Of a stretch of 36,014 nucleotides of DNA, positions 4,828 to 36,014 are shown piece by piece (positions within the stretch are counted from its first letter, which is position 1; every line of letters begins with the position of its first letter). This DNA comes from a virus. The stretch spans positions 1 to 36,014 of IMG/VR virus record IMGVR_UViG_3300035438_000036. The stretch is one strand, 5' to 3'. The notes beneath the pieces were generated by a model that searched no databases, had not been told where the DNA came from, and saw only the letters and a program-made list of their open reading frames with translations. The position numbers were made by a program, and so were the translations under genes.

Positions 4828-5148
4828 TTATTTGTTTGGGAAACCTGGTGGTACTGAGAAATAACGGTCACCAAACTTTATTACTTGGTATCCCCTATCT
4901 TGTTCACCTTGTACGCCCATTTGAAATGTCGGGTGTCCTGCACCTTTTAACATCATGTAGGTATCTTCGGGCAAATTGTAATTCATACGATATTGCAAAG
5001 GAGTAGGGGCTACTGAACCCCAATGGCCCTTGTTTTCACCACCTTCTTGTTGGGGCTGCATCCCAGCACCAATAGCAGTTGTGTAATCATAATCAGCGCC
5101 TGATGGGTCAAATAGACGCAACATATCAGCTAATTTCTGATTAACCAT
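4828..5148 (-). CDS. Conserved phage protein with GENKGHWGSV motif
   Basis: 106 aa; unknown function. It has the pattern DYDYTTAIGAGM, then NKGHWGSVAP, then a HPTF segment and a final RGYQVIKFGDRYFSVPPG. From memory this order recurs in small proteins next to terminase or head genes of several phage groups, which suggests a conserved virion or morphogenesis role. The start ATG overlaps the upstream gene's stop by one base (TAATG), with AAGGA nearby. No transmembrane or signal segment. Confidence 0.75.
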   Translation of the reverse strand: MVNQKLADMLRLFDPSGADYDYTTAIGAGMQPQQEGGENKGHWGSVAPTPLQYRMNYNLPEDTYMMLKGAGHPTFQMGVQGEQDRGYQVIKFGDRYFSVPPGFPNK

Positions 5149-5330
5149 TACATATCCTTCATCTTTAAGGCAATCATTTCTTTTCTTGTGGGCTTGGCAG
5201 TCTTAGCAGCTTCTTTAAAGTCTTTAGCGCTTGGGGCATCTTTGCTACCAACTTTGTTCATTTTTTCGCCCGAACCTTTTGCAATCCTAGCCCTTTTACG
5301 GTGAATATTAGCGTATAGTCCGTCTTTCAT
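5148..5330 (-). CDS. Small Lys/Ala-rich conserved phage protein
   Basis: 60 aa, strongly basic. It begins MKDGLYANIHRKRARIAKGSGEK-like and continues with an Ala/Lys-rich helix (KDFKEAAKTAKPT). Short proteins with this opening are common beside structural genes of tailed phages; the function is not known to me. The ATG overlaps the upstream Dps-like gene by ATGA and the stop overlaps the next gene as TAATG, so it lies in a tightly coupled operon. Confidence 0.72.
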   Translation of the reverse strand: MKDGLYANIHRKRARIAKGSGEKMNKVGSKDAPSAKDFKEAAKTAKPTRKEMIALKMKDM

Positions 5331-5686
5331 TTTAAGAATTTCAATTTGTAAAGGGTTGAGTCAATAAGTTGTGCAATCTCATCAACTATATTCTGAATTT
5401 GGCTTTCTTCGGGCAAATCTTTACGGGCATCCACTACAAATTTCTTCAATGATTCCAAGTACTTAACCGCTTCTTTAGGTTGATGATATACGTTTGGAAA
5501 AGTTGTAATTTTGGTGTAACAACCCATGTAAGCCTCAAGCAAATCGTCTGTAAGGTCAACAATACTGTTATAGTAAGTTCCCAAAGCCATATGCTTGCTG
5601 AAACTATCAGTAGACCAATGAAAGAAATGGGTATTAGTAGCGCTATGCAGCATCGTAGCAGCAAATAAAGCCATGTTGTCATTCAT
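5327..5686 (-). CDS. Dps/ferritin-like helical bundle protein
   Basis: 119 aa from ATG 5686, chosen for an AGGA five bases upstream; a TTG at 5707 would lengthen it. The stretch HFFHWSTDSFSKHMALGTYY followed by DLTDDLLE resembles the helix of Dps and related ferritin-like proteins that carries His, Asp and Glu metal ligands (HW, then H, then D and E at helical spacing). The rest is predicted all-helical. Similar proteins occur in aquatic phages. It overlaps the nuclease gene upstream and the 60-aa gene downstream. The metal or DNA-binding role is inferred; the ligand set is partial, so it may be only a fold relative. Confidence 0.6.
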   Translation of the reverse strand: MNDNMALFAATMLHSATNTHFFHWSTDSFSKHMALGTYYNSIVDLTDDLLEAYMGCYTKITTFPNVYHQPKEAVKYLESLKKFVVDARKDLPEESQIQNIVDEIAQLIDSTLYKLKFLK

Positions 5687-12302: not shown

Positions 12303-12354
12303 CAAATATTTTTAAATCTATGTAATTAAACAACATTTAAGTTAAACTGTGCAA

Positions 12355-12627
12355 ATGGAAAAGTTAAAAATATCTGAATCAACAATGATTGACATACTAG
12401 GTGGTACAGCAAAAGTAGCCAAAATGTGTAAATGTGATGATGCAACTGTGTCTACCTGGCGCAAAAGAGGCATACCTAGTGGGCCTTTAATGTTTTTGGC
12501 AGCTAGAATAGAAAAAGAAAGTCATGGTTTGATAACTCGCCAAGACTTGTTTCCTACTAGCTTTTGGCTTATATGGCCTGAGTTGCTTAAAAACAACGCA
12601 TTTGGCACTCAAAATGAAACTGAGTAA
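12355..12627 (+). CDS. DicC/YdaS-like Cro-type DNA-binding regulator
   Basis: 90 aa from ATG 12355 (a GTG at 12349 is also in frame). Residues 14-44, ILGGTAKVAKMCKCDDATVS then WRKRGIP, are a helix-turn-helix with the W-x-x-RG-I-P signature of the YdaS/DicC Cro-like family, and the C-terminal DLFPTSFWLIWPEL stretch also fits. No Shine-Dalgarno is visible; TAAACT at 12343-12348 lies twelve bases before the ATG, so the transcript could be leaderless. It faces the early operon across a palindromic operator and is probably the switch repressor. Confidence 0.85.
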   Translation: MEKLKISESTMIDILGGTAKVAKMCKCDDATVSTWRKRGIPSGPLMFLAARIEKESHGLITRQDLFPTSFWLIWPELLKNNAFGTQNETE

Positions 12628-13168
12628 TGTAACCATTTGTGCTATAGACTCGATACAACCAGAGTTGGCATTAAAAGCTATGGAAAGAAGCAAGCGCCAT
12701 ATTCAGTTTGGTGATGACTTATTTATAAATCATGCCAGCATTAACAGCAGACAAGCATATAGCAAATTTGTGCTTCAAGAACTGTATAAATACATCAAGA
12801 CGGACTTTGTTTTAATTGTCCAATGGGATGGGTGGGTAATCAATGCAAACGCTTGGCAACCTCAATTTTTAGATTACGATTACATAGGTGCAGTATGGCC
12901 TTGGCATCCTGAAGGATTGCGTGTAGGTAATGGGGGTTTCTCCCTACGCAGTAAGCGTCTTTTAGGGTTAACATCAAGCCCTAAATTTGTTTATAAAGAA
13001 AAAAATGAAGATGACCTTATTTGCCATTTAAATAGGGATTACCTTGTAAGCAATGGAATTAAGTTTGCGCCAGAAGAATTAGCAAGGTATTTTTCTTTTG
13101 AAAGAGAGTTGTCTAATTTGCAAACCTTTGGTTTTCATGGGGAATTTCATAGAGATAAATATTTGTAG
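12614..13168 (+). CDS. DUF5672-type glycosyltransferase-like protein
   Basis: 184 aa from ATG 12614, overlapping the regulator by 14 bases; a TTG at 12602 is less likely. Features are an N-terminal beta strand (NVTICAID), FVLIVQWDGWV around 65-75 with an acidic sugar-nucleotide/metal site candidate (D72), YIGAVWPW at 90-97, and VGNGGFSLRS at 104-113, the hallmark of this GT-A-like family. The substrate is unknown. Placement right after the repressor suggests expression together with it, as seen for envelope-modifying genes in lysogens, but no integrase was found. Confidence 0.8.
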   Translation: MKLSNVTICAIDSIQPELALKAMERSKRHIQFGDDLFINHASINSRQAYSKFVLQELYKYIKTDFVLIVQWDGWVINANAWQPQFLDYDYIGAVWPWHPEGLRVGNGGFSLRSKRLLGLTSSPKFVYKEKNEDDLICHLNRDYLVSNGIKFAPEELARYFSFERELSNLQTFGFHGEFHRDKYL

Positions 13169-13199
13169 TAAGATTGCAGTCCGCACCCCAAGCGTATTA

Positions 13200-13400
13200 A
13201 GTGGTTAAATCGCCAGCGTGGGAGAAAAGATAGGCTAATGTGAACCCCATTGCAAGCCTCGTAGCGTTAAATGGCGACTACACAAGAAGGAAAGGACTTG
13301 GGTGATACAAACTTTCCATCGAATGACCATTATCTTCGCGAAGGACTAGATGTCATAGACATTGGGTCGGCTGATAGTTCCCTATCACCCTTGGTCAAGT
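13200..13400 (+). ncRNA. Candidate structured non-coding RNA
   Basis: This part of a 600-bp gap is visibly richer in G and C than the AT-rich sequence after it and holds many hairpins: TCGCCA (13210-13215) with TGGCGA (13272-13277) enclosing AGGCTAATG (13232-13240) with CATT..AGCCT (13248-13259); GGAAAG (13289-13294) with CTTTCC (13312-13317); ATGAC (13323-13327) with GTCAT (13352-13356) around CTTCGCGAAG; and GGG.TGATAG-TTCC-CTATCA-CCC (13364-13390). I know no family that matches. The strand is assumed from the flanking genes. Confidence 0.45.
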
Positions 13401-13684
13401 TATGTCTAAACCATATACATATTGATGTCTATGTGTACATTAATTGGCAAAAAGTATACACATTACTAAACCTTACAAAATGCCCTTATCGGGAATTTTT
13501 GTGTAATATACGCTACTTTTTCTTACATTATTCCCGTTTAGGAAATAAAAAAGTGCATGAAATTTCAATAAAAAATCATGCAAAAATGTGACATCAATGT
13601 CCTATGTTTGTAAAGTTTGGCAAAATACAACACTTAGGGAAAATACTTATATAAAGCTATTGCATTTAGAATAAACTTCTTTAC
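13401..13684. other. AT-rich gene-free stretch
   Basis: Very AT-rich and without a convincing gene. A 106-codon open frame crosses its first half but has no ribosome site. It contains the inverted repeat TGCATGA (13554-13560) / TCATGCA (13576-13582) and the TATATAAAG run near 13650, which could be promoter-like for the small genes downstream. An origin of replication is possible in such a region, but no iterated sites were seen. Confidence 0.4.
13554..13582. repeat. Seven-base inverted repeat, hairpin or binding site
   Basis: TGCATGA and TCATGCA are exact reverse complements separated by 15 bases. Followed by AAAAA on the plus strand, so on the plus strand it is not a normal terminator; it could be a protein-binding site or the end of a processed RNA. 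Confidence 0.4.
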
Positions 13685-13751
13685 ATCAGGTCATTGACAC
13701 TATTCAGCTTAAGTACTCGTAGACGAACGACTAAAAAGACTTTGACCTGAT
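13685..13751 (+). promoter_or_regulatory. Stem-loop in the leader of the small-gene operon
   Basis: ATCAGGTCA (13685-13693) and TGACCTGAT (13743-13751) form a perfect nine-base stem enclosing 49 bases, inside which CGT/ACG and AGT/ACT can pair around 13712-13732. It ends 17 bases before the ATG at 13769, whose ribosome site AAAAAGGG is just outside the stem. It may control translation of the next gene or be a small RNA of its own. Confidence 0.45.
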
Positions 13752-13768
13752 ATTTCTAAAAAGGGTTT

Positions 13769-34477: not shown

Positions 34478-36014
34478 CTATTACCAGAAGCAACAGAAAC
34501 TGTCTGTCCACTCGCCACAGTTACAGGGCCTACAGACATTGCGTTGCTTCCGCTTGGAATTGAGAAACTTGCACTAACAGTTGCGCTGTTAACTACAAGA
34601 CCATTTGACGCTGAAACTACTGGGGCTGTAAGGGTTGAACTAGCAAAAGTAAAGCTAGAAGAAGCACCAAACGCACCAGCATTATTATATTGCACTTGGG
34701 TGGTAGAACCAGCAGGAGTTCCTGTTACTGTTAAATCTCCAGACCCTAAAACGCTACTTCCATTAATGGTTTTTATGTTTGTGCCACTTACTAATGTGGC
34801 TTGTTTACCATTAAATGTAGTCCAATCTGTGCTTGTCAAATAGCCACTTACTGCGGTTGTGGCTGCTGGCATATCTAGGTTAGGGGTAGCCCCACCAGAA
34901 CTTATCAATGGCGCTGTGGCGCTTACAGAGGTAACCGTGCCAGTACCTTTGTTATTAAAAGTATTCCAATCGGTAGAGGTTAAATAGCCATCTACAGAGG
35001 TGGTAGCTGCTGGCATAGAAATAGCTGGCGTATTGCCTCCGCTACTTACTACTGGTGCTGTGCCTGTAACTGAAGTAACCGTACCACCGCTTGAAGGGCT
35101 GGTATTGGTAACGCTAAAATTAGGGTAAGTACCAGTAACACTTATTCCTGTACCAGCAGTAATAGCTACTGTTTGGTCTGGTGCTGTATTAGTTACTGTA
35201 ACTGCGCCAGTTGCACCGCTTACGCTAATGCCTGTGCTTGCAGCTAATGAATTAACCACATTGGTAAGACTTGCGCCAGAACCTACAAAGCTAGTTGCAG
35301 TAATGGTTGTGCCTGTAATAGCTAAAGGTGTTGTGCCACCAATAACCATGTTATTCATTGTTCCAGCGCTTGTAGGTGCAATTTCAACAGAATTAGTGCC
35401 ACTAGGTTTAATGTGTACATGGCCTGTACCAGTAGGGCTAATGTCTATTTGGGCGTTTGTACCATTTATATTGGTAGAAACATTAATAGACATATTGTCA
35501 CCACCGCCAGCACCCACACTCATTTGGGTTATTCCGCCTGAGTTTTTAAGGGCTAAACCGCCAGAGTTAGTTGCCTGGACAATAGGAGTTGTAACGCTTG
35601 TAGTGGCAGCCAAGGTTGTAACACCTGAAACTGCACCTGTGTCATCAATAGTGGTTACGCTGTTTTGTATTAACTTGCCTGTAGTTGTGTCATATCGTGC
35701 TACTGCATTATCTGTTGCGCTTGCTGGGCCAACTACATCACCACCCAAAGATGGGCTAGAGTTAGTAATTACGCCTGTTGTGCTGTTATAGCTAATGCCT
35801 GTACCAGCGCTGACTGAAGCCCTAGCCCTAGCGTCTGTGTAATAAAGGTTTGTGCCTTCGTTTACATTGGTAGTGGTTAACACTACTGCGCCAGTAAGAC
35901 CGTTAACTGAGGTTACTGAGTCAGTATTGTCTATTTTTTGCCAAATAGTGCCGTTGTATACCGCCCAATCGCCAACCAGCCAATCAGTAGTCCCATTAAG
36001 GTTAGTACTGCCAG
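34462..36014 (-). CDS. Tail fibre protein, C-terminal part (gene begins at 605)
   Basis: The continuation of the fibre gene from position 605. Joined through the terminal repeat it makes a single 682-aa frame. It is Thr/Ser/Gly-rich and beta-repetitive, with NLYYTDARARASVSAGTGI, a motif common in aquatic phage fibres, and two adjacent units carrying SSGG.TP, MPAATT and GYLTSTDW.TFN in this order. The C terminus ends GQTVSVASGNRWVVL. The last 109 bases duplicate the start of the window. Probably a trimeric fibre. Confidence 0.85.
   Translation of the reverse strand, partial: GSTNLNGTTDWLVGDWAVYNGTIWQKIDNTDSVTSVNGLTGAVVLTTTNVNEGTNLYYTDARARASVSAGTGISYNSTTGVITNSSPSLGGDVVGPASATDNAVARYDTTTGKLIQNSVTTIDDTGAVSGVTTLAATTSVTTPIVQATNSGGLALKNSGGITQMSVGAGGGDNMSINVSTNINGTNAQIDISPTGTGHVHIKPSGTNSVEIAPTSAGTMNNMVIGGTTPLAITGTTITATSFVGSGASLTNVVNSLAASTGISVSGATGAVTVTNTAPDQTVAITAGTGISVTGTYPNFSVTNTSPSSGGTVTSVTGTAPVVSSGGNTPAISMPAATTSVDGYLTSTDWNTFNNKGTGTVTSVSATAPLISSGGATPNLDMPAATTAVSGYLTSTDWTTFNGKQATLVSGTNIKTINGSSVLGSGDLTVTGTPAGSTTQVQYNNAGAFGASSSFTFASSTLTAPVVSASNGLVVNSATVSASFSIPSGSNAMSVGPVTVASGQTVSVASGNRWVVL
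34800..35090 (-). repeat. Two tandem fibre repeats of about 43 codons
   Basis: Two consecutive units encode TSV..TAP..SSGG.TP, MPAATT..GYLTSTDW and TFN.K. DNA copies are related but diverged (for example the pairs beginning near 34810 and 34945). Likely stacked segments of the fibre shaft, able to gain or lose units. Confidence 0.7.
35906..36014. repeat. Terminal direct repeat, right copy
   Basis: Same 109 bases as 1..109, with C at 36008 where the left copy has T. See the left copy. Confidence 0.93.

Follow-up and report, generated by a model that had tools for sequence, protein, structure and literature searches.

The put RNA of phage HK022, which is approximately 70 nt long and formed by two stem-loops, acts on RNA polymerase and occurs twice per genome, with putL located just after PL and putR some 270 nt into PR (PMC9378689). 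Other bacterial or phage-associated RNAs, such as GOLLD, ROOL and OLE, have complex structures and, according to two reports, no settled biochemical function (PMC12286853, PMC12054373).

The locus described here belongs to an IMG/VR virus record of 36,014 bases, taken whole (the window), in which genes for the portal, terminase, capsid and endolysin can be recognised. Its annotated relatives are podovirus-like phages, including MW202674.1 from a freshwater spring. The gap at 13169-13768, studied on both strands, contains a segment of about 225 nt (module A, Table 1) which, judging from its homologues, is almost certainly a conserved structured RNA. Module A resembles put in being a putative early-transcript phage RNA: it lies past a Cro-like gene as putR lies past PR, and thus occupies the put location, near or downstream of PR and Cro. 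Moreover, putL adjoins its promoter, as is probable for module A. However, the two stem-loops of the 70-nt put RNA contrast with the eight helical domains and four pseudoknots of module A, and put is present in both early transcripts whereas there is a single copy of module A per genome. The complex fold and unsettled function are shared with GOLLD, ROOL and OLE, but Rfam gives module A no match, and those three are much larger RNAs. With its strong covariation, its presence in many genomes of freshwater phages and its absence from Rfam 15, module A represents a new RNA family, although of a kind already known, that of conserved structured phage RNAs of unassigned function.

Protein-anchored searches with two flanking genes identified 74 and 68 related viral loci, and BLASTN comparison of these loci reveals that the gap is composed of separable parts. 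The region 13173-13405 accompanies the DUF5672 gene, including where this gene is inverted relative to a 79-aa gene, whereas a large part of 13406-13768 is upstream sequence of the latter. The nhmmer profile of the conserved module (13173-13405) has sharp ends, which coincide almost exactly with the segment picked out in the preliminary description of this DNA. Three IMG/VR pattern scans enlarged the family to at least 122 distinct homologues, complete or nearly so, all fitting one template; this set is a lower bound and the family is larger. Membership of the working set was defined by a match to at least two thirds of the nhmmer profile, and 103 distinct sequences aligned earlier show a mean pairwise identity of 71% (minimum 50%). 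Module A is single-copy in all 16 matching records and in the window, where the sole match of covariance model R1 is module A itself (106 bits, E 5e-24). No copy was found in the cellular genomes scanned: among 84,980 species genomes of bacteria and archaea, a pattern scan returned 14 chance matches, none fitting the nhmmer profile, and a model of the 5' half found nothing in 369 Gammaproteobacteria genomes, a weak result since this group may not be that of the host. BLASTN searches with the gap against annotated phages and with one homologue against plasmids gave no match.

The preliminary description had proposed that the gap holds no credible gene and that its first part, richer in GC than what follows, is a structured non-coding RNA of no recognised class. 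Indeed, no conserved gene is present in the gap, and GC content is 0.42-0.49 (120-nt windows) in the first part compared with 0.26-0.31 past 13400. A 106-aa open reading frame (13271-13591) matched no Pfam or PHROGs family. Stops interrupt the reading frames of module A in almost every one of 66 homologues, whose lengths are spread over all three classes modulo 3; conservation of a protein frame, which had been named as one observation that would speak against an RNA, is absent from this set. A coding interpretation was dropped because stops and indels break the frames in nearly all homologues. In MW202674.1 (locus L286), two small minus-strand GenBank CDS, probably spurious, cover the RNA module at 5130-5377. 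Comparison of the window and 17 module-bearing loci with Rfam 15 (4227 families, gathering cut-off) returned no family, as the suggestion of a new class had anticipated, and the gap matched nothing even at E 5. A literature search found no earlier description of such RNAs, although the limited library makes this weak evidence.

Single-sequence folding of the gap is at chance level (z -0.39 on the + strand and -0.66 on the - strand) and a sliding fold-energy scan across the window shows nothing special; both being uninformative, the case was decided by the homologues alone. All 66 non-redundant sequences parse into a template of eight helical domains and four pseudoknots (Table 1). In two MAFFT alignments made without reference to structure, standard pairs fill 99.3% of the cells in A1 (66 sequences, 31 pairs) and 99.4% in A2 (38 sequences, 25 pairs). 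Double changes affect 16 of 31 and 14 of 25 pairs, respectively, and both partners are changed in 277 and 145 cells. When partners are slid by 1-3 columns, pairing falls to 30-50%, and the covariation score of 0.39-0.45 compares with 0.03-0.07 in these slid controls. A further measure on the MAFFT alignments, that of further pair types, shows no excess over shuffles. A tree-based test, similar to but distinct from R-scape (G-test with APC, substitutions re-placed on a FastTree tree, 40 nulls), retained 15 of 25,200 column pairs at E<0.03, each of which belongs to the model or agrees with it; the 23 top-ranked column pairs are nearly all standard-paired and in the model or compatible. In this test the support for P5 and P8 is somewhat optimistic, their alignment being partly guided by pairing; P1-P4, PK1-PK3 and P7 are unaffected.

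Table 1. Features of the locus and pairings of the module A template (window coordinates).
Feature	Position or pairing	Strand	Evidence or remark
Cro/YdaS-like HTH gene	12349..12627	+	phrog_35 2e-10; YdaS_toxin 7e-6
DUF5672 gene, directly 5' of module A	12602..13168	+	PF18922 5.6e-21
TAAGAT, -10-like hexamer	13169..13174	+	just past DUF5672 stop codon; TANNNT at -12
Module A core	13180..13405	+	nhmmer family; template fit 66/66; covariation; CM R1 match
P1 hairpin	CGC 13182-13184 with GCG 13192-13194	+	third pair U-A, C-G, G-C; 66/66 paired
PK1	CCCA 13187-13190 (P1 loop) with UGGG 13219-13222 (strand after P2)	+	66/66 paired
P2 hairpin	UGGU 13202-13205 with GCCA 13212-13215	+	38/38 paired; E<0.025
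PK2	AUC 13209-13211 (P2 loop) with GAU 13229-13231 (before P3)	+	E<0.025
P3	AGGC 13232-13235 with GCCU 13256-13259	+	first pair E<0.025
P3b	AAUG 13237-13240 with CAUU 13248-13251	+	
P4 hairpin	GUAG 13261-13264 with CUAC 13278-13281; CGU 13265-13267 with GCG 13274-13276	+	
PK3	AAUG 13270-13273 (P4 loop) with CAUU 13328-13331 (before P7)	+	E<0.025
P5	GGAAAG 13289-13294 with CUUUCC 13312-13317	+	four pairs E<0.025
P6 pseudoknot	GGGUGAUA 13300-13307 (P5 loop) with UAUCACCC 13383-13390 (3' end)	+	core 66/66
P7	UC 13333-13334 with GA 13340-13341	+	UNMG-type loop; strongest covarying pair of set
P8 basal	GAC-UAG 13344-13349 with UGG-GUC 13363-13368	+	66/66 fit; basal pair E 0.58
P8 apical	AUGUC 13350-13354 with GACAU 13358-13362	+	one pair E<0.025

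Pairing is maintained through different base combinations in most elements of the template. PK1 occurs as UCCA/UGGA, UUCC/GGAA or CCCA/UGGG, one pair of P2 as C-G, A-U, U-A or G-C, and the first pair of P3 as A-U, G-C or C-G (33, 25 and 8 rows, respectively). Exchanges of G-C for C-G in PK2 (23/66) and of A-U for G-C in PK3 (17/66) are frequent, and P4 shows double changes in five of its seven pairs, several of them at E<0.025. The core of P6 exists as GGUGA/UCACC and GGUGG/CCACC, distant members (L309, L327, L310) show additional compensated versions, and the covarying pair of P7 exists as C-G (29), U-A (19) or A-U (18). P8 is found as GAC/GUC, CAU/AUG, GAA/UUC and AGU/ACU, with an invariant UAG or UGG facing UGG. 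The tree-based test points to an additional contact between 13191 and 13197 (E<0.025); another appears to join the second base of the P7 loop to the middle base of the UAG/UGG element (66/66 paired, E 1.6). The unpaired nucleotides of module A are very conserved.

This template differs from the fold drawn in the preliminary description. The stem AGGCTAATG/CATT..AGCCT is real and corresponds to helix P3/P3b, and the outer TCGCCA/TGGCGA stem around it, found in one of 66 homologues, is a chance match. The GTAG/CTAC pairing had been offered as an alternative to this outer stem, hence as a possible switching element; the pairing itself exists, as the conserved helix P4, and is not an alternative fold. 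Since the outer stem occurs in only one of 66 homologues, the idea of a switch falls. The TGATAG-TTCC-CTATCA hairpin is present in 25 of 66 homologues; its 3' arm is used by P6 in all 66, pairing, in DNA letters, GGGTGATA (13300-13307) with TATCACCC (13383-13390). Taken as a whole, the description was right about the gene-free gap, its GC content and the presence of a discrete module, and wrong about the fold as drawn and some of the named stems. Its central proposal of a structured non-coding RNA clearly passes the test of covariation among homologues without a protein frame.

Module A heads a rightward early operon with replication-type genes, and on its other side lies a divergent leftward operon; the arrangement is the same in MW202674.1, where the leftward genes include SSB and Erf. 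Of the 83 members of the Cro/YdaS-like gene cluster, 82 lie upstream of module A and share its strand. The genes downstream differ between phages, and even the first one is not constant. In all 22 loci in which module A directly follows a gene, without the domain B described below, a TANNNT box lies 12 bases before the module, and the genes preceding it vary (HTH, DUF5672 and others). This constancy despite differing upstream genes suggests that module A is probably a 5' leader transcribed from its own promoter, with a predicted start near 13181. In distant families, promoter-like boxes are found 25-170 nt upstream. The predicted -35 boxes are weak, and a promoter scan did not call the predicted promoter before module A. 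A leader role is also consistent with the presence of a ribosome binding site and ATG within about 20-40 nt 3' of module A in four loci (L238, L248, L302 and L305), and with the lack of a conserved terminator after it (27 of 109 loci, compared with 56 of 314 random windows). The operon that follows module A shows no enrichment of intrinsic terminators (44 sense versus 76 antisense), so that nothing calls for antitermination.

A separate element, domain B, is found about 150 nt 5' of module A in L189, L202, L226, L252, L196 and other loci. It forms a long terminator-like hairpin and starts near a -10 box with GCAGAnTGA. The loop of this hairpin varies in sequence and can pair with the 6-8 nt that immediately precede the hairpin: matches of at least 6 nt occur in 59% of 39 loci, as opposed to 14% when loops are swapped between loci. 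Domain B thus resembles, in its sequence, a pseudoknot under diversifying change. It precedes module A or, judged by eye, the alternative RNAs.

Sister phages that carry the DUF5672 gene but not module A have other sequences at this site. One is the RNA of family RF02932 (Betaproteobacteria-1), at 80-96 bits. It lies behind the same DUF5672 gene and -10-like box as module A and is of similar size (about 213 nt as extended), but shows no detectable sequence or model similarity to it, and the module A model has no match at these type C loci. Alignment of RF02932 in L115 (4566-4777), L104, L141, L009 and some 40 other distinct sequences covers about 213 nt, well past the 120 positions of the Rfam model. 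The RF02932 cut-off of 49.4 bits is not reached in the window, and none of the 16 records bearing module A matches. A relative of EGFOA (RF02955) shares the site in L129, a locus without module A, at 29.1 bits, below the cut-off of 37.7 bits, a value not reached in the window region either; module A has no match to EGFOA. Both families reportedly originate from a 2017 paper in NAR, and a literature search on RF02932 and EGFOA found no relevant paper. A conserved RNA-like sequence without Rfam match (type E) is found at the site in L138 (4743-4907), L128, L056, L062, L072, L007, L103 and L125.

These RNAs appear to be mutually exclusive. Among 25 records tested by both models, 16 carry module A, 6 carry RF02932 and none carries both; by our own arithmetic, which ignores relatedness, the chance of zero overlap is about 5e-4. 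RF02932, present in 9 of 29 records searched, never occurs with module A in the records tested, and at the locus level the profiles of the alternative RNAs never overlap it. The module A model detects no trace of distant homology in the alternative RNAs. By eye, module A, type C and type E seem to share a 3' pattern, ACC.yUUGG..CUAU. Several relatives, among them L066, L068 and L069, carry no RNA in this position, and the RNA there is therefore dispensable. In these three and in L058, which have the Cro-like gene and no RNA, the palindrome TTGACCTAGGTCAAG is found shortly after the gene. The unusual feature of the locus is this site at which unrelated RNAs replace one another. The odds are roughly even that, in the freshwater phages of this group, a single conserved promoter is followed by a site for RNA cassettes, at which module A, Betaproteobacteria-1, an EGFOA-like RNA and type E, structurally unrelated to one another, would perform the same job early in infection; module A would in that case be one of several answers to one and the same RNA function. 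The site provides a phage context for the orphan family RF02932 and, more weakly, for RF02955. If these families and module A were interchangeable, one experiment on any of them would inform all.

Comparative sequence analysis thus points firmly to a folded, single-copy RNA on the early-gene strand, at a site shared with other structured RNAs. To our knowledge, conserved RNAs of such tertiary complexity are rare. Most such RNAs that have been solved proved to be ribozymes or riboswitches, or else machines that hold on to polymerase or the ribosome. A riboswitch was rejected because the downstream genes vary between phages and no consistent class is found among them, and a self-splicing intron because module A lies between complete, unrelated genes, with no split gene in the contexts seen.

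The most probable role for module A is as the 5' leader of an early phage transcript engaging the machinery of the host. It would be transcribed from a sigma70-type promoter with a -10 box that adjoins the preceding gene's stop codon or overlaps it, and would thus stand at the 5' end of an early transcript continuing into the replication operon. The nascent leader may fold behind RNA polymerase, as does the HK022 put RNA, bind conserved host machinery and influence, in cis, either transcription or what becomes of the early transcript as a whole. Binding of conserved host machinery would allow several unrelated folds to fill the same place. The complete reading (own promoter, put-like action in cis through host machinery) is given a probability of about 0.45. 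Action in cis, taken by itself, has roughly even odds, and a specific anti-pausing or antitermination function, by analogy with put, which makes RNA polymerase disregard terminators, seems doubtful: the single copy, the larger size and the lack of an excess of sense terminators downstream argue against put-like action. The presence of the terminator-like domain B before module A in many relatives, the filing of RF02932 in Rfam as an sRNA, the relatives without RNA at the site and the weak -35 boxes also count against the complete reading.

Action in trans is nearly as likely as action in cis. Module A could be the precursor of a trans-acting sRNA or RNA-protein complex, processed from the early transcript and acting, at an early stage of infection, on a factor of the host or of the phage, for instance as a mimic or decoy. 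This possibility, which deserves serious though lesser credence, would agree with the conservation of the single-stranded nucleotides, with the alternation with an RNA that Rfam treats as an sRNA gene and with the inconstant first gene downstream; the lack of a conserved terminator at the 3' end, and the L238/L248 group in which module A runs straight into a ribosome binding site and ATG, do not favour it. A catalytic RNA, self-cleaving or otherwise, that cuts or protects the early transcript is unlikely. The compact multi-pseudoknot fold and invariant unpaired bases would suit one, but no Rfam ribozyme model matches, module A is larger than typical self-cleaving RNAs, and several unrelated folds fill the same place. 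Slighter still is the prospect that the segment serves the early replication operon as an origin of replication or as a primer RNA: although it heads an operon with replication-type genes and is followed by AT-rich sequence, covariation at the RNA level and UNMG-type loops mark an RNA function, and some relatives have no RNA there. That the segment is no RNA at all, being chance hairpins or a coding region as its ordinary single-sequence fold energy and the overlapping 106-aa frame might suggest, is extremely improbable, since the strong covariation seen among 66 and among 38 diverse homologues, on alignments built without structure, and frames broken by stops and indels refute it unless the alignments are wrong.

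Two further observations concern the window outside module A. An inverted repeat, ATCAGGTCA/TGACCTGAT, precedes the 79-aa gene at 13688-13752 and may be an operator or a hairpin. The ends of the record (1-105 and 35910-36014) repeat about 105 bases with one mismatch, which suggests a circular or terminally redundant genome with a tail gene split across the ends.
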